From the NCBI RefSeq assembly GCF_004766315.1, contig NZ_PVSN01000069.1:1-52297 (forward strand): a DNA stretch of 52,297 nt, written 5' to 3'. This DNA is from Weissella confusa. Its GTDB lineage: Bacteria > Bacillota > Bacilli > Lactobacillales > Lactobacillaceae. The number at the start of each line of letters is the position of its first letter. Position 1 is the first letter of the stretch. The notes under the pieces are model-generated. The model did not search any database. It saw nothing but the letters and a program-made list of their open reading frames with translations, and had not been told where the DNA came from. Positions 28,319 to 38,502 of the stretch are shown here, one piece after another. Both the position numbers and the translations under genes were made by a program.

Positions 28319-29110
28319 TTACAAGTTACGGTCGTACAACGTTGCGAATTCTGACAAATCAACCCCGAAGTCGCTTGCTGAAACAATATCAACTGCGTTT
28401 CCTTCTTCGCCAGCCTTTTCTTCAAAAATCTTTGCGATATCAGCGTACAAAGCTTGGTAAGCTTCCTTGTCAGGTCCATCAACAACCAACAAGTAGTTTT
28501 CAGTACCCGTGGCTTCGTTCGTCAACCACAACAAGTGCATACGCTCAATCTTACCCATAGCATCATCAGCCAAGCCAATCAAATCGTAACGCAATGGCGT
28601 TGGGATGACATCTTCAGCAGAAGAAATTTGCATCTCACCTTCACCTTCACCTTGTTGCGCTGCCAACAAGCCAGCGATGTAGGCCAAGTTTTCACGTGAA
28701 ATTGGCATACCGTTCGTGAATGGGTTCAATGCCAAGCCCTCAAGGTTTTCAGAATCTTCACCTTGCAAAACTGGCAAGTAGTCAGTCAACGCCATGGCCC
28801 ATGGGTGAACAGGCTCTTCTGAGTCAATTGGTTGGGCATTGAAGGCATCCAAATCTGTAAAGATTGGGAATACTGAGTGGCCGTTTTCCATCTCGAACGT
28901 CAACAAACGCATTTCTGCGCCTTCAGGAATTTCAACATCCCCATTTTCCTTAATGATTGGTGGCTCACTAAAGTTTACTGGTGCAATAAAGACCGCTTCA
29001 ATCAACGCTTGAATAAACGCTTGCTCCGTTGTGCCGTTTTGATCTTCACGAAATGCTGCCAACGCATCTAGCAATGCGTCGTTACGCAAAACATCTTCTT
29101 GGTTATCCAT
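28319..29110 (-). CDS. SseB family protein, copy 1
   Basis: This 263-residue acidic soluble protein has the layout of the SseB family: an N-terminal domain (with IEAVFIAPV, MRLLTFEMENGHSVFPIFTD) and a C-terminal SseB_C domain (MHLLWLTNEATGTENYLLVV). It shares the same order of segments with the protein at 29201-29962 (FI..L..A..APV, FP.FT, an aliphatic-rich middle with N-P/NAYG, then the C-terminal domain), so they are paralogues. Family members are named after serine-sensitivity effects in E. coli, but the role here is unknown. It has its own terminator. Confidence 0.75.
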   Translation of the reverse strand: MDNQEDVLRNDALLDALAAFREDQNGTTEQAFIQALIEAVFIAPVNFSEPPIIKENGDVEIPEGAEMRLLTFEMENGHSVFPIFTDLDAFNAQPIDSEEPVHPWAMALTDYLPVLQGEDSENLEGLALNPFTNGMPISRENLAYIAGLLAAQQGEGEGEMQISSAEDVIPTPLRYDLIGLADDAMGKIERMHLLWLTNEATGTENYLLVVDGPDKEAYQALYADIAKIFEEKAGEEGNAVDIVSASDFGVDLSEFATLYDRNL

Positions 29111-29155
29111 TATAATTCCCCATTCTTAAATCCTTGTGTTTTATCTAGTATAACG

Positions 29156-29190
29156 AAAAAAAGAGCACCTGCCCAGATGACAGATGCTCT
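29156..29190 (-). terminator. Terminator of second SseB-family gene
   Basis: Stem AGAGCA.CTG/CAG.TGCTCT followed by TTTTTT on the minus strand, 11 bases after the stop codon. Confidence 0.8.
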
Positions 29191-29200
29191 AATTGTTGGA

Positions 29201-29962
29201 TTACTTTGTGTAGATTGGTGCGAATGCAGCTGCACGTGGGTAACCAATTTCTTGAACACCCAATACGTTCGTGAATGCTGGGGCACCGGCCATTTGAGCA
29301 AAGGCAAAGAATTGTGCCTTTGCTTCTTCAAGTTCACCATCCGTGTGGATAACGTAAATCAATGCGCGCTCTGGTGCACGAACCAAGTCGATGGCCCAAA
29401 CAGTTTGCAAGTCAGGCAAAACTTCACCCATACCCTCAGCCAACTTAGCTGCGAATTCCGTTTGATCATCAACAGGATCTTCCAAAGTGATAGGGTCTTG
29501 CTCACGCATTTGCGTCAACGTTGCCATCACGTAGTTCATGTTGTCTTGGTTCATGACAACGTTTTGACCGTAGGCATTGATAACCAAACCAGTATCAGAG
29601 TTAGCTGACATCAAAGCGGCATAAGTTTCCAATGAAACAGTCAAGGCAACAACACCTTCAGCTTCAGTTGACCACTTGTTGTATTCTTCTGTGCTCGTGA
29701 AAGCTGGGAAGAATACTTCACCCTTTGAGTTTTGGATGACTTGGTAGTTCAATTGTGCGGTAACTTCTGAGTCAATTACGAAAGTACCATCACCATTGTC
29801 AGTCAATTCAGCATCAACTTGTACTGGTGCTAGCAATGATGCGGCACCCAACATTGCGATGAAATCATGCTCAGTTTCAGGGTTAACATCTTTCTCGTAA
29901 GCATCTAGCGTTGCTTCAAGATCTTCATTTTCTAGTGGACGGTTGAAAATCACATCTGCCAT
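29201..29962 (-). CDS. SseB family protein, copy 2
   Basis: This 253-residue acidic protein starts MADVIFNRPLENEDLEATL and has the N-terminal SseB pattern (FIAMLGAASLLAPVQV, GEVFFPAFTSTEEYNKW, DTGLVINAYGQNVVM) and a C-terminal SseB_C-like part (VWAIDLVRAPERALIYVIHTD). It is a diverged tandem paralogue of the protein at 28319-29110. ATG 29962 is preferred because GAGGA lies 9 bases upstream. Soluble and cytoplasmic by composition. Function unknown. Confidence 0.75.
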   Translation of the reverse strand: MADVIFNRPLENEDLEATLDAYEKDVNPETEHDFIAMLGAASLLAPVQVDAELTDNGDGTFVIDSEVTAQLNYQVIQNSKGEVFFPAFTSTEEYNKWSTEAEGVVALTVSLETYAALMSANSDTGLVINAYGQNVVMNQDNMNYVMATLTQMREQDPITLEDPVDDQTEFAAKLAEGMGEVLPDLQTVWAIDLVRAPERALIYVIHTDGELEEAKAQFFAFAQMAGAPAFTNVLGVQEIGYPRAAAFAPIYTK

Positions 29963-30048
29963 GGTCAAATTCCTCATTCGTTTATTTTTTGTTAGTATAC
30001 CCCAACTAAAACGAATAGTGTTGTAAAAAGGTTCTAAGGAATATCAGC

Positions 30049-31122
30049 CTAATCTAACGTTTCTGGTACAACAACTTTCTTGTCCAAAATGTTTTGCTTG
30101 GCGTCTTGCACTGCCATCCAGGCTTCAGTACTCATGCGTCCGCGCGTTACTGAGACACCATCATTATCAAGCCCATATACCAAGTGCTCACCACCAGGGA
30201 ATTGGTCCTTCATCGCCATATTAGCAATGTCATAGACCACTTGATCCATTCGCTTTAACGCAGACGTCAAAGTGAAATTTGATGAGGCGTCTAACGCTTG
30301 ATAACGACCGCTTTGTGATTGATTTGAATCGACACCAATTACCCAAACCTTAGCTGCACTTCGACGCTTTTCATTAATTGCGCGTGCAGCATCAAATACA
30401 CCTTGACCAGCGCCACCCGCCGTTTGGTAAACGACGTCAGCACCCGCTTGATACATATTATTTGCCAACGTTTTGGCAGTCGCATCATTTTTAAAATTAC
30501 CAACATAATCATGCAAAATCTGAATTGTTGGATTAATTGATTTTGCGCCAGCGATATAGCCAGCTTCAAACGCTTCCATAACCACTGACTTTTCACCACT
30601 AACAAGTCCAATGGTGTTTGTTTTGGTCGTCTTAGCCGCCGCTACACCCGCCAAGTATGATGATTGATTAGCTTGAAACGTCACCGAGACAACGTTTGGT
30701 CGCGTCTGAGCAACATCACCAACCATGACAAAATCTCGGTCAGGATACTTCTGCACCGCTTCATCCACGGCGTTTATCTTGCGATAACCTACCGCAAAAA
30801 TTGTCTTAAATCCATCGTTAACCGCATCGGTAATTGCTTGTCGCGATTCTGTCGCCGTTACCGCATGAAAGGACTGATAACCATCAATTCCTTCAGCCAG
30901 ACCTGTTTCCAAAGCATATCTTTTAATGCCACGCCAAGCAATTTCTTGGTACGATTGATCATCAACACCAGCACCATCTGTAATCATGGCGACTGTCGCT
31001 TGAATCGGTTCTGTTTGTGCCTCAGTCGGGCGACTCGTTATCATCATCCCCGCAACCGCGGCAATCAGCGCTGTTGCCGCAACACCAATAATCACACTTT
31101 TTTCATCTCTTTCCCTCAACAT
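30049..31122 (-). CDS. BMP-family binding protein 5, diverged
   Basis: About 357 residues, the most diverged of the five BMP paralogues, closest to BMP4: MITDGAGVDDQSYQEIAWRG, SSYLAGVAAAKTTKTN, FEAGYIAGAKSINP, VWVIGVDSNQSQSG. The N-terminus has a hydrophobic anchor (VIIGVAATALIAAVAG) without a lipobox; no cysteine occurs. The start is uncertain. ATG 31122 has no ribosome binding site; a better one (GAGGGAAAGAG) precedes another ATG at about 31106, but that frame stops after four codons because a run of six A is one base short of bringing it into the BMP frame. It is the second gene after BMP4, with an attenuating hairpin between. Confidence 0.8.
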   Translation of the reverse strand: MLRERDEKSVIIGVAATALIAAVAGMMITSRPTEAQTEPIQATVAMITDGAGVDDQSYQEIAWRGIKRYALETGLAEGIDGYQSFHAVTATESRQAITDAVNDGFKTIFAVGYRKINAVDEAVQKYPDRDFVMVGDVAQTRPNVVSVTFQANQSSYLAGVAAAKTTKTNTIGLVSGEKSVVMEAFEAGYIAGAKSINPTIQILHDYVGNFKNDATAKTLANNMYQAGADVVYQTAGGAGQGVFDAARAINEKRRSAAKVWVIGVDSNQSQSGRYQALDASSNFTLTSALKRMDQVVYDIANMAMKDQFPGGEHLVYGLDNDGVSVTRGRMSTEAWMAVQDAKQNILDKKVVVPETLD

Positions 31123-31133
31123 GAAATCAAATT

Positions 31134-31166
31134 AAAAGACGTTATGCGTCTAAACGCACAACGTCT
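31134..31166 (-). terminator. Weak terminator/attenuator between BMP4 and BMP5
   Basis: An imperfect 12-bp stem GACGTTGTGCGT/ACGCATAACGTC followed by TTTTAATTTGATTT on the minus strand, 13 bases after the BMP4 stop codon. Likely to lower but not block BMP5 transcription. Confidence 0.65.
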
Positions 31167-31178
31167 CATTAAACCAAA

Positions 31179-32234
31179 TTACTTTGAAGGAACTGTGATT
31201 TCCTTATCAACAATCTTCTTTTGGGCTGCTTGAACAGCTTGCCAAGCTTCGTCAGACATGTTTCCGCGTGTTACAGCAACACCCTTGTCGTCCAAGCCGT
31301 AAACCAATTGCTTACCACCAGGGAACTTGTCCTTAGCTGCCATTTCAGTCACGTCAACAACGGCCTTACCAACCTTCTTAACTGATGACGTCAACGTGAA
31401 GTTTGACTTACCATCCTTCGCCGTGTAAGCACCATCATCGTTTTGGTCACGGTCAACACCGATTACCCAAACCTTGTCAGCAGCGTTCTTTTCGCTGTTC
31501 AAGTCCTTAGCTTCAGTGAAGACACCAGCACCGGCACCACCGGCGGCTGAGAAGATCACATCAGTACCGTTTTGGTACATTGAAGCCGCAATCGTCTTAC
31601 CCTTACCAGCATCAGTAAAGCTACCAACGTATTGTACATCAACTTGAATGTCAGGGTTAACTGACTTTGCACCGGCAACGAAACCAGCTTCGAATGTCTT
31701 CACAACTGCTGATTCCATACCACCAACGAAGCCAAGCTTGTTCGTCTTAGTCGTCTTAGCGGCAGCAACACCAGCCAAGTATGATGATTGTTCTGACTTA
31801 AACGTTACTGAGACTACGTCATCACGCTTCTTTGCGATGTCATCGACAATCATAAAGTTCGTGTCTGGGTGCTTCTTAGCTTCTTCGTTAACCGTTGAAG
31901 TCAATTGGAACCCAATACCATAAATGTTCTTGAAACCGGCTGACACAGCTTGATCATAATTTGTCTTAAAATCAGCGTGTGACTTTGATTGATAGTAAGT
32001 GTAACCATTCTTACCTTGCTTAACGCCGTTTTCCTTACCCCACTTCTCCAAGCCTTCCCAGGCAGATTGTTGGAATGACTTATCGTCAACTCCACCACCG
32101 TCAGTCACCAATGCGACTGATGTCTTACCTGCTTCACCTGAAGCTGACTTGTTTCCAGATAGTGCGGCGTATGCGCCACCAGCGATTACTACTACAGCAG
32201 CACCAGCAATCCACATCTTTACGTTTGAAGCCAT
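31179..32234 (-). CDS. BMP-family nucleoside-binding protein 4, membrane-anchored
   Basis: This 351-residue BMP-family protein has the core SVALVTDGGGVDDKSFQQSA, SSYLAGVAAAKTTKTNKLGF, FEAGFVAGAKSVNPDIQVDV and VWVIGVDRDQNDDGAY. The N-terminal part KMWIAGAAVVVIAGGAYAAL is a hydrophobic anchor; there is no lipobox and no cysteine in the protein. It has its own promoter with three PurR-like boxes and is followed by BMP5. No ABC permease or ATPase is near, so it presumably works with the transporter encoded at 11760-15398 or another elsewhere. Confidence 0.9.
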   Translation of the reverse strand: MASNVKMWIAGAAVVVIAGGAYAALSGNKSASGEAGKTSVALVTDGGGVDDKSFQQSAWEGLEKWGKENGVKQGKNGYTYYQSKSHADFKTNYDQAVSAGFKNIYGIGFQLTSTVNEEAKKHPDTNFMIVDDIAKKRDDVVSVTFKSEQSSYLAGVAAAKTTKTNKLGFVGGMESAVVKTFEAGFVAGAKSVNPDIQVDVQYVGSFTDAGKGKTIAASMYQNGTDVIFSAAGGAGAGVFTEAKDLNSEKNAADKVWVIGVDRDQNDDGAYTAKDGKSNFTLTSSVKKVGKAVVDVTEMAAKDKFPGGKQLVYGLDDKGVAVTRGNMSDEAWQAVQAAQKKIVDKEITVPSK

Positions 32235-33473: not shown

Positions 33474-33869
33474 ATGCGCTATCTCTACATTTTGCTCGGG
33501 TTGATCACGTTCGGTATTGGAACCGTAACGATTTGGGTGCCCGGCATTCCAACGACGCCCTTTTACTTGCTAACTGCATTTTTCTGGGGTCGTTCCTCAG
33601 AGCGACTTCACGCCTGGTTAACCCAAAATAAACACTATCAAAAATATGTGCATGAAGGCATCTACCACCGTGGTTTGGCCCAACGTGCGCGCATTGTCAT
33701 CTATCTCGTAACCGCAGCTATGATGAGTATCCCGTTCTTTACTTCTGGCAAGACATGGCTCCAATTCACGTTAATTGGTGCATCGCTTAGCCAAATTATC
33801 TCAATGGAAGGCTTCTACCGTGGCTGGTGGATGAACAACTGGTTCCTACCAGACGATGATGCTGAATAA
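33474..33869 (+). CDS. DUF454 (YbaN-like) membrane protein
   Basis: This 131-residue protein starts MRYLYILLGLITFGIGTVTIWVPGIPTTPFYLLTAFFWGRSSERLHAWL, the recognisable DUF454/YbaN pattern: a first helix, the conserved VPGIPTTPF turn, then a short second helix and FWGRSSERLHAWL. Two further hydrophobic segments follow. AAAGG precedes ATG 33474. Function is unknown for this family; it is an inner-membrane protein. It is convergent with the small gene at 33913, with a terminator between. Confidence 0.87.
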   Translation: MRYLYILLGLITFGIGTVTIWVPGIPTTPFYLLTAFFWGRSSERLHAWLTQNKHYQKYVHEGIYHRGLAQRARIVIYLVTAAMMSIPFFTSGKTWLQFTLIGASLSQIISMEGFYRGWWMNNWFLPDDDAE

Positions 33870-33871
33870 TT

Positions 33872-33911
33872 AAAAATCTCGACCGCACAAACATGCAGTC
33901 GAGATTTTTTT
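33872..33911. terminator. Bidirectional terminator DUF454 gene / MoxR-VWA operon
   Basis: Stem AAAAATCTCGAC/GTCGAGATTTTT with inner GCA/TGC pairs, flanked by A and T runs. It ends both the DUF454 gene and the four-gene minus-strand operon. Confidence 0.85.
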
Positions 33912-33912
33912 G

Positions 33913-34218
33913 TTACATATCAAAGCGACCCTTAAGTGACGCAATCACATCCGGCGTCAATCGAACGCTATTCGCTTGAATGAATTGTTGCACATCAGCC
34001 AACGTCTCAAACTTTTGCTTAACTGGTTGTACCAAGTTCGCTTGCAACAACGCCTCAGCAAATTGGACGTCTGCCATATTAATCGTTGTCATCCCCCAGG
34101 GTTGTGACAACAACAACTCTTCCCAAGTCCCCTTAATAAGGGCCTCGGCACGCTCATAACGACGATCCTTATTAATAAATGATCGCAAATCAATTGGGTT
34201 CAAATCATTCTCTGCCAT
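33913..34218 (-). CDS. Small sister protein B of MoxR-VWA operon, unknown family
   Basis: This 101-residue soluble protein is the last gene of the operon. It shares a pattern with the protein encoded at 34205-34495: YERAEALI/YERAVALL, a tryptophan, S-P, TTI, D-x-QFA-x-AL, A-x-LV, then QFI..N and a C-terminal L-D helix. They are therefore diverged tandem duplicates. The start overlaps the end of the previous gene by 14 bases, which indicates translational coupling. No known domain is recognised. The second of two adjacent ATGs (34218) has the better spaced GAGGAG. Confidence 0.75.
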   Translation of the reverse strand: MAENDLNPIDLRSFINKDRRYERAEALIKGTWEELLLSQPWGMTTINMADVQFAEALLQANLVQPVKQKFETLADVQQFIQANSVRLTPDVIASLKGRFDM

Positions 34219-34495
34219 CATGCCACTCCTCTAACCAACTGGCGGCATCATCGCCTAACCATTGTTGGTTTGTTTCAATAAATTGTTCAAAGTCATCTGC
34301 GACATCAGCTTGTTCAACTAAGTCCGCTTCGTATAGTGCAATCGCAAATTGCGCATCGGTTGCTGCAATCGTCGTCGGTGAAATCGGATGACTCACCACA
34401 AAGCGATTCCACTCATTCCACAACAAAGCAACTGCGCGTTCGTATTTTGGTGCCCGCAAAATCACGGCACGTAACATCAATGGATCAAGCGCCAT
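34205..34495 (-). CDS. Small sister protein A of MoxR-VWA operon, unknown family
   Basis: This 96-residue acidic soluble protein starts MALDPLMLRAVILRAPKYERA. ATG 34495 overlaps the stop codon of the VWA gene by one base (TAATG) and is preceded by GGGAGG, so the longer open frame is not used. It is homologous to the following small protein (YERA..L, TTI..D.QFA.AL..A.LV). It has no signal peptide and no membrane helix. The coupling to the ATPase and VWA genes suggests a partner or substrate of that complex; function is unknown. Confidence 0.75.
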   Translation of the reverse strand: MALDPLMLRAVILRAPKYERAVALLWNEWNRFVVSHPISPTTIAATDAQFAIALYEADLVEQADVADDFEQFIETNQQWLGDDAASWLEEWHDGRE

Positions 34496-35691
34496 TAATT
34501 GTCCTCCCATTTTGTTAATGTCACAACTTGGCCAACCGGTTGCGCAACTGAAAGTGTCGCGTCGGTTGGCAACACCCACACTAATCGACGATAACGATTA
34601 GCTGGCAATTCTTGTTCACCGTCACCATCGGTAAAGATAACCACGACGGTACTCTGCGGTTGGTATCGCTCTGACTGCAACGATTCAAAAATCGTTGTAA
34701 AGCGCGTGCCACCACCAGCGCGACGGCGACCATCCGCAATCCAATTCTTATCAATTGCATGTACTTCCGTGTCGAAGGCAAAGAAATCAACTGCCGCTGC
34801 AAGTTGTTTTTGCATCTGGGCTACTTCAGCCATAAAACGACTCGCCGTATCATCTGAAATGGACGCTGAATTATCGATAAAGACCGCAATCTTGGTCTGT
34901 GTCGCGTCCGCTTGCCCCGGCAATTCCATGCGATATGGTTGGCAACGATTGAAACGGGCACGACTATCTTGCTTGCCTGCTGGCACGTTGCTCATCGCCT
35001 TACGCAACAAGCATCGCCAGTTACGTCGTGGCGCCAATAGTTGTTCAATCTGGCGTTCAACTTCGCCCGCCATATTACCGCGACCTGCAACTAGCGCATC
35101 GTGGTTCGCATCGGCAACCACATTTTGCAAAGCAGCTTCTGCTTCTTCGCCAGCCTCAGCACCTGTCGACCAACCTTTGTGATCGTCACCAGGCAACTGT
35201 GAACTTGCCCCTTCGTTATCAATCGTATCCATCAATGGATGCAATAAATTGTAATAGGTACTTGAATCGGCATACGTTGGCAAATCCAATTCAATCATTT
35301 CTTCTACTTCAGCCAATGTGTGGGCACCCGGAAAGCCACCACGAATATATTGATTAACCGATAAGTCAGTTGCCAAACCAACCATCTTGGCCTCAGCTGC
35401 ATCCTCAGTAATTTTATCTGCATAACGAATTGGGTGTTCCCACACCATGTGTAGCACTTGGTGGGTCAGCGCACCTTTAACATCCGCAACCGAGTGATAA
35501 ACTTCTTCGAATAAAATCGGATTAATCCGCAACTCCCAAAATGGCGCTTGCCAAGAAAGTCCCATCGTACCGCCAACCGTGTCATCATACACACGATTTA
35601 ATCGTAAGACGACTTCACCATAAAACTGGCTTTCGTCCAACAATTTCATCGTGGCTTTTTGAACGAGTTCATCAATCTTCTGATAGGTCAT
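34495..35691 (-). CDS. VWA/DUF2201-like protein with degenerate metallopeptidase motif
   Basis: This 398-residue protein has an N-terminal DUF2201-type metallopeptidase-like domain (about 1-160) and a C-terminal von Willebrand A-like domain (about 265-398). The MIDAS residues are visible: DNSAS (273-277), a threonine in GGGTRF (about 327-331) and TDGDG (354-358). The zinc motif expected as HExxH reads H77-Q-V-L-H81, so the catalytic glutamate is replaced by glutamine. The start at 35691 overlaps the end of the MoxR-type gene by 20 bases and has AAGGTGG upstream. MoxR ATPases and VWA proteins work in pairs in assembly or activation of other proteins, so these two likely form one complex. Confidence 0.85.
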   Translation of the reverse strand: MTYQKIDELVQKATMKLLDESQFYGEVVLRLNRVYDDTVGGTMGLSWQAPFWELRINPILFEEVYHSVADVKGALTHQVLHMVWEHPIRYADKITEDAAEAKMVGLATDLSVNQYIRGGFPGAHTLAEVEEMIELDLPTYADSSTYYNLLHPLMDTIDNEGASSQLPGDDHKGWSTGAEAGEEAEAALQNVVADANHDALVAGRGNMAGEVERQIEQLLAPRRNWRCLLRKAMSNVPAGKQDSRARFNRCQPYRMELPGQADATQTKIAVFIDNSASISDDTASRFMAEVAQMQKQLAAAVDFFAFDTEVHAIDKNWIADGRRRAGGGTRFTTIFESLQSERYQPQSTVVVIFTDGDGEQELPANRYRRLVWVLPTDATLSVAQPVGQVVTLTKWEDN

Positions 35692-36847
35692 AGGCGGCCA
35701 CCTTCGTGATGACATCGTAAAGTTGCTTTGCGTGCTCACCAGTTGAGCTGTAAAGTTGCTCCAACAAGTTACCCGCTGCCAATTGCTTAACGACTGCGTA
35801 TTGGCCGTCCTTGGCCGTTGCTGTCAAAATTTGCGTAAAGCGACCGGCGTTATCATCTTGGGCAATATCAACTGCGGCTAACGTTGACTTCAACAAGGCC
35901 AACTTTTGCACTTCAGGCAAGCCAACGAACTTCGTCATCACTTGTTCTGGCACTTCTGGTCCCCATGGTTGGCTTACAAAGATATCCATTGGCGTCAACG
36001 TCTCTTGATTCGTTTGCATAAATTGCACGAAACGTTGCGCAGCAGCTTCACCCAGGTCGCCAGCCACAATGTCAAAAATCAACGCTTGCTGAGTCGCTTC
36101 TGGCAAGGTCAATAATTCATATAAATTATCTGACACACGTTGCCAAGCACGTGGCGTAGGATTCAAATCATCCCCACGTTCAGCTGGGTAAAGTTGTGTC
36201 GCATCCTCTTGTAGATAACGTTGAATCATCTCATGGATGTTTGGGCGTTGCTTCGTCTTATCTTCAGTCGCTGCCCAGGCCAGCCAGTCGGCAACATCAA
36301 CCTTCATCACTAAGCGAACCGTACGATCCTTAATGGCCGCATCTCCAGCCACAACCCCGTAATCAGCATTTTCAAATCCAGCCATCGTTTCATCAGGATT
36401 TTCAGCAATCACCAGTTTCACTTCGGCCGGCAAAATCAATGAATTAATTTGGCGTTGCAAGACCAAATTCATCAACTCACTTTGGACCGCTTGTGAGCCA
36501 CGATTAAACTCGTCCAAGAACCAAATGATTGGCTTGCCTGGATGTGCTTGCGCAGTTTCGATAATCTCAATCAACGTGTGCGTGTAACCGTACTTCACAT
36601 CAGCCAATGAACCATACTGCTCGGTTTCAACATAAGCATCGCTGGTCAAAGGTGGCACCGGAATCGCCAAGTCACCCTTTTCTGACAAAGAAACAACCGT
36701 CGTAAAGAGTGTTGCGCCCATTTGGCGGGCAATTTCAGCGACCAATGCTGACTTACCAATACCAGCTTCACCGACAATATTAGGCACATTACCACCTTGC
36801 AACACGAGTGGAACTGCCGTTACTAATTCCTGAAATGAAAGCGCCAT
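35672..36847 (-). CDS. MoxR-type AAA+ ATPase
   Basis: This 391-residue cytosolic ATPase has Walker A GEAGIGKS (26-33), Walker B IIWFLDEFNRG (DE at 112-113) and the sensor region with ENPDETM of MoxR-type AAA+ proteins. MoxR ATPases act with VWA-domain proteins as chaperones that insert cofactors, remodel or activate partner complexes. TGAGGAG precedes ATG 36847. It is the first gene of the overlapping operon MoxR - VWA/DUF2201 - small A - small B. The client cannot be deduced from the neighbours. Confidence 0.9.
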   Translation of the reverse strand: MALSFQELVTAVPLVLQGGNVPNIVGEAGIGKSALVAEIARQMGATLFTTVVSLSEKGDLAIPVPPLTSDAYVETEQYGSLADVKYGYTHTLIEIIETAQAHPGKPIIWFLDEFNRGSQAVQSELMNLVLQRQINSLILPAEVKLVIAENPDETMAGFENADYGVVAGDAAIKDRTVRLVMKVDVADWLAWAATEDKTKQRPNIHEMIQRYLQEDATQLYPAERGDDLNPTPRAWQRVSDNLYELLTLPEATQQALIFDIVAGDLGEAAAQRFVQFMQTNQETLTPMDIFVSQPWGPEVPEQVMTKFVGLPEVQKLALLKSTLAAVDIAQDDNAGRFTQILTATAKDGQYAVVKQLAAGNLLEQLYSSTGEHAKQLYDVITKVAAYDLSED

Positions 36848-36943
36848 GTCGTTCTCCTCAATCTACTGTTAATTACTTATAGTTTACGCTGTTTCAAACC
36901 CTTTTTGGCTTTAAAAGTTAGTTGGTTGTCTGTGTCCGCCACC

Positions 36944-36985
36944 AAAAAAGAAAAGCCACCAGATGCTTTAAGTTCATCCGGTGGC
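36944..36985 (-). terminator. Terminator of the intergenic transcript
   Basis: Stem GCCACC.GATG/CATC.GGTGGC with one mismatch, followed by TTTTCTTTTTT on the minus strand. It could end the candidate small RNA or the M20 peptidase mRNA. Confidence 0.8.
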
Positions 36986-37193
36986 TACCATGGTGTTTCA
37001 GTTGTCTTTCTGTACGCGACAATCGCTTGGTAAAGTATCATGATATGAGTTAACAGGTTCGTCCATCTGTACACTTCGTTTTCCAAGGGAAGGTCTCATG
37101 TCGTTGATTCAATACCAGGTTAAGACTAGCTCATTGGTTGCGCGTTTGATATGAGCGTCATCGTGACGATTGGCAATCGAAGCATCAATTCAT
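36944..37193 (-). ncRNA. Candidate structured small RNA, about 250 nt, class unknown
   Basis: This is the main content of the 395-base gap between the MoxR gene and the M20 peptidase gene. On the minus strand a -10 TATAAT (37200-37205) stands over a 7-bp inverted repeat AATTCAT/ATGAATT (37187-37202) near the expected start. About 250 bases later a strong terminator follows. Local hairpins are visible (CGATT/AATCG, CGTCA/TGACG, GCTCAT/ATGAGC, TTGTC/GACAA). Short reading frames exist on both strands but none has a convincing start and length. I could not match it to 6S, tmRNA, RNase P or SRP RNA. Confidence 0.4.
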
Positions 37194-37199
37194 TTATGA

Positions 37200-37228
37200 A
37201 TTATACGGAACACTTTGATATTCGCCTA
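37200..37228 (-). promoter_or_regulatory. Promoter of candidate small RNA
   Basis: On the minus strand a consensus -10 TATAAT (37200-37205) lies 17 bp from a poor -35 TAGGCG (37223-37228). It is placed just behind the stop codon of the M20 gene. Confidence 0.4.
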
Positions 37229-37242
37229 ATAAAAAGGGAACT

Positions 37243-38502
37243 TTAATTTAAATAGTCCGTCGCAACGTCTTTGAACAACTCAATCATCTTGAAGTAAGCC
37301 GCTTCTTCAACGTACTCATCCGCCTTGTGGGCCGTTGCGTTACCTGGTCCGATGACTGCCAATTGCATGTTTGGGTTGGCCTTGATAAATTGTGAGGCAT
37401 CCGTTCCCAATGATACTACAATCGCAGGTGCAGCCATTGGTTCATCCAAATACTTTGGAATTGTTTGCTGAATAAGCTGAATCAATTCACTGTCCTTTGG
37501 CGCAACAACCGCACCATCGTACGCCTTCACGTTCAAACGTAAATCCATTTGTGGATCCGTTGCCATCACATCCGCCATCAACTTTTTCAAACGGCCAATC
37601 AACTCCTCCGGTGGCAACTCCGGAATGATACGCGTTAGCACTGTCAATGTTGCTGAGTCAGGAACTGAGTTTTGTTGCTGGCCACCCTGAATCACGTCAG
37701 GGCCATATAGCGTACGGTCCAATACTGGACTAACTTCTGGCAGTTCCTCATAGAATTGCTTCTCAGCTAGATAGTAGGTAATCAAATGGTCAATCGCGTT
37801 GATGCCCAACTTTGGCATTGAGCTGTGCGCCGCCTTCCCCTTTGCCGTCACTTCATAAGCCAAAAAGCCCTTGTGCGCGTGGAAGATAAAGTGTTGTTCA
37901 GGCGCCTTGCTACCACGCTTCTTTTCATTCAACTCAGCCAAAGCTTCCGGATCGATGGCGGTCCCACCGCTGTGGAAATAATCATCAATGTCGTCCAACG
38001 CCACGCCAGTTGGTTCGGCAATTACCATTGCTTCAACATCATCCAAGTAACCTCGCTCAGTTAGTAGTTTTGCCCCAGCTTCCGTCTTTTCTTCATCAAC
38101 CGTGGCGATAAAGCGCACCGTTCCATGCAATGGCGCACCAGATTCTTGCAATTCAGTCATTGCAATCAAGAATTCAGCGATACCGCCCTTCATATCCGTC
38201 GTGCCACGGCCATACAAGCGACCGTCCTTTGCAACCACTTCAAACGGATCTGTTGTCCAGGTATCTAAATCACCTTCATGAACCGTATCAATGTGGCCAG
38301 CAAACGCTAGCACTGGTCCTTCACCATCCCCAATTTCCGCCACAATATTTGCACGTTGTGAATCATCAGCCACTAACTGACTTTCGATGCCATGGCGCTT
38401 AAAGACGTCCTGCAAATAAACCGCTACTGATGTTTCATTGGCCGCTACCGTGTTAATGGCAACCAAGTCTTTTAGTATTGTTAATTTTTCTTGTTCCCGC
38501 AT
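37243..38502 (-). CDS. M20 family metallopeptidase (ArgE/DapE type)
   Basis: This 419-residue cytosolic zinc hydrolase has the M20 motifs: FAGHIDTVHEGD (first metal ligand His), GRGTTDMKGGIAE (bridging Asp) and ATVDEEKTEAG (catalytic Glu pair), plus an inserted dimerisation domain with FHAHKGFLAYEVTAKGKAAHSSMP. It probably removes acyl or succinyl groups from amino acids or cleaves dipeptides. The choice between ArgE, DapE and other members is not possible from sequence alone. ATG 38502 is preferred over an in-frame GTG four codons upstream because GGTGGGG lies 6 bases before it. Confidence 0.87.
   Translation of the reverse strand: MREQEKLTILKDLVAINTVAANETSVAVYLQDVFKRHGIESQLVADDSQRANIVAEIGDGEGPVLAFAGHIDTVHEGDLDTWTTDPFEVVAKDGRLYGRGTTDMKGGIAEFLIAMTELQESGAPLHGTVRFIATVDEEKTEAGAKLLTERGYLDDVEAMVIAEPTGVALDDIDDYFHSGGTAIDPEALAELNEKKRGSKAPEQHFIFHAHKGFLAYEVTAKGKAAHSSMPKLGINAIDHLITYYLAEKQFYEELPEVSPVLDRTLYGPDVIQGGQQQNSVPDSATLTVLTRIIPELPPEELIGRLKKLMADVMATDPQMDLRLNVKAYDGAVVAPKDSELIQLIQQTIPKYLDEPMAAPAIVVSLGTDASQFIKANPNMQLAVIGPGNATAHKADEYVEEAAYFKMIELFKDVATDYLN

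Follow-up and report, generated by a model that had tools for sequence, protein, structure and literature searches.

The question raised by this locus is whether four overlapping genes on the minus strand of a Weissella confusa contig encode the parts of one protein complex and, if so, of what kind. The genes occupy positions 33913-36847 of contig NZ_PVSN01000069.1 (assembly GCF_004766315.1), which was analyzed over its 52,297 nucleotides and is called the window below, and they encode a MoxR-clade ATPase, a protein with DUF2201 and VWA domains, and two small proteins, S1 and S2. The analysis leans moderately towards a machine that remodels proteins at the expense of ATP and is built from three kinds of subunit, in which the small protein family, here named S, would be a dedicated third subunit; we infer a complex of the MoxR, VWA and S proteins. 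The initial annotation had picked out the four genes as the best candidate in the window for an undescribed system. This holds in part: the putative third subunit S is lineage-specific, and the ATPase and VWA proteins to which it is added form a motor pair of known kind.

The layout described in that annotation, with successive overlaps of 20, 1 and 14 bases, is borne out by the open reading frames (ORFs). The ATPase gene (35672..36847, 391 amino acids) shares 20 bases (35672-35691) with the VWA gene (34495..35691, start ATG 35691, 398 amino acids), which shares one base (34495) with the gene for S1 (34205..34495, 96 amino acids). The latter overlaps the S2 gene (33913..34218, 101 amino acids) by 14 bases (34205-34218) if S2 starts at ATG 34218, or by 17 bases if it starts at ATG 34221. 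A Shine-Dalgarno-like stretch, judged by eye, lies 5' of each of the four starts, and joint translation of the four genes can be inferred from the overlaps. All four genes are under purifying selection. The pairwise ratios of nonsynonymous to synonymous substitution rates (dN/dS) against W. confusa DSM 20196 (L002) and W. cibaria (L003) are 0.018-0.114, and because of these values we regard the four ORFs as real genes.

The small proteins had been noted as two unfamiliar partners. Unfamiliar they are, since neither S1 nor S2 has a match in Pfam, NCBIfam, PADLOC or PHROGs, while their standing as two separate proteins is ruled out by paralogy. BLASTP aligns S1 with S2 at 37% identity over 95 columns (E 5e-17), and the S profile matches both the diverged copy S1 (E 1.7e-25) and the conserved copy S2 (E 1.7e-31), which identifies them at the sequence level as tandem paralogues of one family. 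In the S tree, the W. confusa and W. cibaria copies of S1 and S2 form one group (support 69), within which S1 is set apart on a long branch (support 100) while S2 alone forms no split. The pair was seen in the W. confusa/cibaria group only, in five genomes (the window's, G152, G154, G158 and G155, the last listed under the window's species), and a sixth (G156) is scrambled; a search with S2 returned four loci, in W. confusa and W. cibaria. The more distant Weissella G166 (L133) carries one S gene only, in the corresponding position ahead of IspE. Together with the grouping of S1 and S2 in the tree, this makes a duplication of S within the confusa/cibaria line, followed by divergence of S1, the most likely history.

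Members of the S family are about 95 amino acids long. In their alignment (A1; 45 of 50 distinct sequences, with five near-identical members and the scrambled L004 left out), W32 and A24 are the only invariant residues (45/45 rows), and D50 is present in 42 of 45. The structure predicted for S2 is all-helical, with six helices at a predicted local distance difference test score (pLDDT) of 70.8 and with D50 at the start of the fourth helix. Fold searches with this model gave noise-level matches only. No Pfam family matched more than three of the 45 members at E 0.1, all of these matches being weak, and the VMAP models were not searched by name.

The distribution of the three gene families was examined in 151 Lactobacillaceae genomes from 40 genera, drawn from a larger group. 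The VWA and ATPase genes were found in the same 46 genomes and S in 47 (gene lists compared by eye), the 47th S match being a partial one at chance level (G134, E 0.0067). At the limits used, the cassette is thus all-or-none, with all three genes in 46 genomes, none in 105, and a presence in 15 of the 40 genera. The linkage of the small proteins to the MoxR and VWA genes is therefore complete in the genomes searched. The contrary case considered at the outset, small proteins occurring mostly without the other two, was not encountered: S stands alone in 0 of 151 genomes, the G134 fragment aside. The 45 other positive genomes, which belong to 14 further genera, yielded 45 loci, and all 45 have the order MoxR-VWA-S; 43 of these loci were recovered by pairwise search and two (L049 and L062) by profile. 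Only the window's genome gave two S matches in the family draw. By this comparison of gene content the core unit is three genes, MoxR-VWA-S, and not four, with S duplicated in one Weissella group.

Within Weissella, VWA is present in 7 of 28 genomes. Matches to an M20 peptidase and to DUF454 flank the cassette in the window, and in two of the 20 IspE loci of cassette-negative Weissella (L155 and L156) the gap between these two genes is only about 50 bases. No convincing S was found outside Lactobacillaceae in 246 order-wide genomes, where three matches reached E 0.006-0.01 and contained an internal stop, and among 249 phylum-wide genomes the window's own was the only one matched. Two loci, L004 and L046, were left out of the cassette tree. 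The VWA gene of L046 (5986-7160, genome G007) is split into two ORFs, which reflects a real break or an assembly error. The assembly of L004 (JACSZT010000003.1, W. confusa FS54) is scrambled: over the 12.4 kb compared, blocks of ~198 bases match L002 in the right sense and in reversed order, as if each line had been reverse-complemented separately, and G156 (66% complete) behaves likewise.

The cassette occupies at least five unrelated places. That its order is nevertheless kept in all 45 loci points to a self-contained unit. In 17 of the 45 loci, from six genera, S is followed 87-134 bases on, in the same direction, by genes that we take to encode S16, KhpA, RimM, TrmD and L19. Directly upstream in these 17 loci lies an SRP54-family gene, presumably Ffh (12 loci), a cation ATPase gene (4) or another gene (1). 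The family searches supplied names at this site only for SRP54 (one cluster member, the FtsY-like gene of L064) and for the cation ATPase. The cassette tree splits the S16-site loci into two groups, with supports of 92 and 91, on a backbone of low support (53-63), and the S16 site may be old. No fixed outside partner emerged: any given neighboring gene family recurs in at most 6 of the 15 genera, and a conserved flanking client gene was dropped for this reason. In 10 of the 45 loci (L037-L046), which make up 10 of 10 from four genera, a fourth gene of a family designated F10 (142-171 amino acids) shares 4-11 bases with S. F10 matches were obtained in 12 of the 151 genomes, corresponding to the ten cassette loci and two weak matches (E 1.6e-4 and 4.8e-4) in cassette-negative genomes. 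F10 was not found in the window's genome. It belongs to no Pfam family, and its NCBIfam matches are weak and fall far short of the cut-offs. A heme-monooxygenase-like identity was considered for it, and no search bore this out. In the remaining genera, different genes adjoin the cassette.

The domain content of the two large proteins is that of a motor and its handle. The ATPase belongs to the dynein-related AAA_5 group of AAA+ proteins (PF07728, 24.8 bits against a cut-off of 22; 40 of 42 family rows at E 0.001) and has Walker A, Walker B and the sensor-1 Asn. Its motifs GxAGxGK, WFLDEFNRG, NPD and TPR, to which we assign functional labels by assumption, are invariant in 42 of 42 rows. AAA_3, which we take to be the Pfam model of MoxR proper, gave no match to the window ATPase at E up to 1 and none among the 42 rows at 0.001. 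The VWA protein matches the DUF2201 VWA-like model, PF09967, with 62.2 bits (cut-off 26.4, E 6.8e-17; 42 of 42 rows at E 0.001) and DUF2201_N, PF13203, with 38.2 bits (cut-off 23.2, E 1.6e-9), and its score with the CoxE-like VWA model (26.2 bits) falls just below the cut-off of 26.4. Residues D273, S275, S277, T329 and D355, which we take to form the metal ion-dependent adhesion site (MIDAS), are invariant in 42 of 42 rows. Because these residues and the ATPase motifs are invariant, the alignments indicate that motor-handle function is the part under selection. Mean column identity is 56% for the ATPase, the most conserved of the three, 36% for VWA and 40% for S (alignments A3 and A4 omit near-duplicates, L004 and L046).

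The MoxR-VWA pair is related to phage genes according to PHROG, tblastn and trees. PHROG 1297 matches the ATPase (E 1.1e-39, residues 3-302 of 391) and PHROG 1314 the VWA protein (E 1.9e-49, residues 4-393 of 398), so homology to the phage gp24-gp25 pair spans most of the length of both. Of 50,697 phage records searched by tblastn, 106 contained a relative of the VWA protein and 181 a relative of the ATPase; among the matches listed (40 each) were N4-like phages and the PBS1/AR9 jumbo phages. A VWA relative was found in 1 of 72,556 plasmid records, and the viral contig scans gave one VWA relative and no MoxR relative. Trees of relatives (36 VWA and 35 MoxR sequences, a thin sampling of 13 chosen Lactobacillaceae loci and fetched relatives) unite Lactobacillaceae with G176, one other genome of the Lactobacillales, at supports of 78 (VWA) and 100 (MoxR), and group both with the AR9/PBS1/BpSp phages at 96 (VWA) and 100 (MoxR). 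On these trees, the motor and handle together with G176 are the nearest cellular relative of the AR9/PBS1 pair among those found.

In the Bacillus jumbo phages AR9 (g028-g029), PBS1 (gp213-gp214) and BpSp, the two genes are adjacent and share order and domains with the cassette pair, with profile E-values of 1e-51 to 4e-53 for MoxR and 8e-71 to 1e-72 for VWA. They are annotated as an AAA ATPase and a 'zincin-like protease fused to vWA'. They differ in being phage genes, in an intact HExxH site and in next genes unlike S, and AR9 g028 lies behind an annotated early promoter. The gp24 (AAA) and gp25 (vWFA) proteins of N4-like phages (Schitoviridae) are also homologous to the pair, at ~22-26% identity. 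In all three loci where both were recognized (LIT1, VEc25 and Zuri), however, the two are separated by one gene, and no S was seen. N4 gp24 and gp25 count among the core genes and have no known function; Table 3 of PMC4193335 enters them as 'unknown' and 'vWFA domain'. AAA and vWFA genes of N4-like phages are likewise described as having no known function (PMC2784036), and a Delftia phage has AAA and vWFA/DUF2201_N genes (PMC5735904). Elsewhere gp24/gp25 are called rIIA/rIIB-like (PMC9525291), unlike the situation in an N4 relative where rIIA is annotated as a separate gene. Many of the listed phage records label the PHROG 1314 family 'HNH endonuclease' (for instance NC_031039.1 and NC_043027.1); this looks like a propagated misannotation, the domains noted in the AR9 GenBank record being VWA and metallopeptidase.

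Cellular systems offer further comparisons. NorQ-NorD, CbbQ-CbbO, RavA-ViaA and Midasin likewise combine a motor with a VWA handle bearing a MIDAS. Their clients are known, and the cassette VWA protein is far better matched by the DUF2201 model. To our knowledge, none of the four has an S-like third subunit. The MoxR-vWA ternary conflict systems (with VMAP, iSTAND, FtsH or beta-propeller components) also join the pair to a third linked component (PMC7159879). In contrast to these, S is a protein of ~95 amino acids that matches no family and shows no effector domain, the hosts are unicellular and the cassette is conserved.

The mechanism that we propose is modelled on NorQD, in which a finger of the VWA protein enters the pore of an AAA+ ring, the VWA protein is twisted, and the MIDAS or a linker is suggested to grip the client by acidic residues (PMC13036017; PMC9976466). 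The authors presume the finger-in-pore mode for all AAA+/VWA pairs (PMC13036017), and the MIDAS domain of Midasin pulls assembly factors off pre-ribosomes (PMC8837202). Extended to the cassette through homology with NorQ/NorD and Midasin, this would make the MoxR-clade ATPase a hexameric ring on which the VWA/DUF2201 protein docks, to be twisted by ATP hydrolysis. A candidate for the part that enters the pore is RFNRRQPxRMxLPG, an Arg-rich conserved stretch directly preceding the first VWA strand. The MIDAS metal site would grip an acidic residue of a partner, and S, as an obligate third subunit, would most likely act as an adaptor or co-chaperone that joins the VWA handle to the client. D50 of S2 is proposed as a possible MIDAS ligand. 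With two S copies at their disposal, W. confusa and W. cibaria may build the machine in two versions.

Several observations weigh against this machine or parts of it. Outside Lactobacillaceae, related pairs work without S: searches around the G176 pair, in 13 further Bacilli/Bacillota loci (some of them on short contigs) and in four phage loci matched none. The neighboring phage genes tested and the 149-amino-acid gene after the G176 pair show no S likeness (best E 0.056 in a set of 15 sequences), and the best match of S2 to phage records, in Caulobacter phages at E 0.1, was read as chance. Residue D50 is missing in 3 of 45 S members and, given its place in the model, may be a simple helix cap. 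The predicted model of the VWA protein has a pLDDT of 39.9 and is unusable, and the finger cannot be seen in it. Furthermore, the window VWA protein has Cys250, within the conserved stretch before the VWA domain, where 41 of 42 rows, including W. confusa L002, have Arg; with this allele the machine of this strain may be altered.

What the machine would act on, and whether it is a machine of this kind at all, can be weighed against the same evidence. S could itself be the client, remodelled or activated by MoxR-VWA and acting elsewhere in the cell, as no other gene stands with the pair in every Lactobacillaceae locus and MoxR-VWA operons often contain their own client (cox, nor and cbb). The nor operon, for instance, contains the client of its pair (PMC9976466). 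We consider this possible but unlikely for a protein of such size in which only Ala and Trp are invariant over 45 rows, hence with no invariant Cys or His; a two-gene motor seems costly for so small a helical protein, and tandem duplication suits an adaptor equally well. In a quite improbable alternative, the unit would be a bacterial equivalent of Midasin that serves in the maturation of the ribosome or signal recognition particle (SRP) and works on the products of its frequent host operon. The 17 S16-site loci in six genera, with an upstream SRP54-family gene in 12, speak for it, and their division into two tree groups leaves room for an old site, yet 28 of 45 loci lie elsewhere, so that linkage is not required, the tree backbone is low in support, and 105 of 151 relatives live without the cassette. 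Also in its favor, the MoxR profile, searched against PDB at E 0.01, matches only four Midasin constructs (E 1.8e-4); against it, this match covers profile positions 8-70 only, no single stretch of it passes the limit, and it reflects the dynein-related AAA clade. More doubtful still is the elaborated version, a free-standing three-part Midasin counterpart remodelling ribosome or signal recognition particles, with a phage-type motor and handle, S as lineage-specific adaptor, and an ancestral peptidase turned into a non-catalytic grip.

The phage affinities raise the prospect of a defence or counter-defence module of phage descent, which we hold to be rather improbable. None of the four window proteins matched a PADLOC 2.0.0 family at E up to 1, five genera give five positive genomes each, 17 of the 45 loci stand in the S16 operon and not in variable islands, and the ATPase is the most conserved part, with no effector domain in the cassette. 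This is set against the grouping of the motor, handle and G176 with the AR9/PBS1/BpSp pair, a wider family that mixes phages and bacteria, and the existence of MoxR-vWA-third-component systems with proposed conflict roles (PMC7159879). Insertion of a metal or iron-sulfur (Fe-S) cofactor into a client enzyme, in the manner of NorQD or RavA-ViaA, would match the well-studied MoxR-VWA pairs, which do this or act on enzymes of this sort (PMC13036017; PMC10585395), and appears similarly improbable here. SufBD (PF01458) occurs in 114 of 151 genomes, many more than carry the cassette (46), while searches of the window's genome and of the cassette-bearing G015, G024 and G053 did not find it, which bears on Fe-S only; a SUF-dependent or Fe-S client is unlikely because of this absence, and the Fe-S (SUF) link was set aside on the SufBD distribution. 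Least credible is a VWA protein that works as a metallopeptidase regulated by the ATPase, as the Pfam name 'putative metallopeptidase' and the AR9 label 'zincin-like protease' would have it. All 9 viral relatives and 10 of 13 bacterial ones outside Lactobacillales have an intact HExxH, but the window protein has HQVLH, with Gln for Glu, and G176 has QMCYH. In the Lactobacillaceae rows, the Glu is kept in only 15 of 42 (missing in 27), compared with 40, 42 and 41 for the three His and 42 for the Pro after the last His. The fold or metal site thus seems to be kept in these sequences, with peptidase chemistry mostly lost.

MoxR-VWA motors are widespread, many of them without a known client. For the Lactobacillaceae, the open literature, as represented by titles and the beginnings of abstracts and with most subscription papers outside its reach, gave no account of the cassette or of a MoxR-VWA pair; a DUF2201 protein appears, with an entry of 0.045, in a proteomics table of Lactobacillus pentosus LPQ1 (PMC9740157). 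As an all-or-none cassette in a third of the sampled Lactobacillaceae genomes, with an S absent from the family libraries searched, the putative three-subunit machine is also related to N4 core genes 24/25 of unknown function. A client identified in lactobacilli would make the role of the AR9/PBS1 and N4 phage genes testable too.

The remaining features of the window concern expression signals and neighbors. A simple scan found 0 sigma-70-like promoters in 33700-37400, where shuffled sequences averaged 5.7. A hairpin resembling an intrinsic terminator lies 3' of S2 on the minus strand (33866..33912), overlapping the end of the convergent DUF454 gene. It folds with -24.2 kcal/mol (z -8.66 against 200 shuffles) and ends in a T run, and is absent from the list of a simple terminator scan. 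Downstream of IspE, the window contains two tandem paralogous pairs, at 30049-32234 and 28319-29977 (families F32 and F31), the first of which presumably encodes proteins resembling basic-membrane-type lipoproteins.

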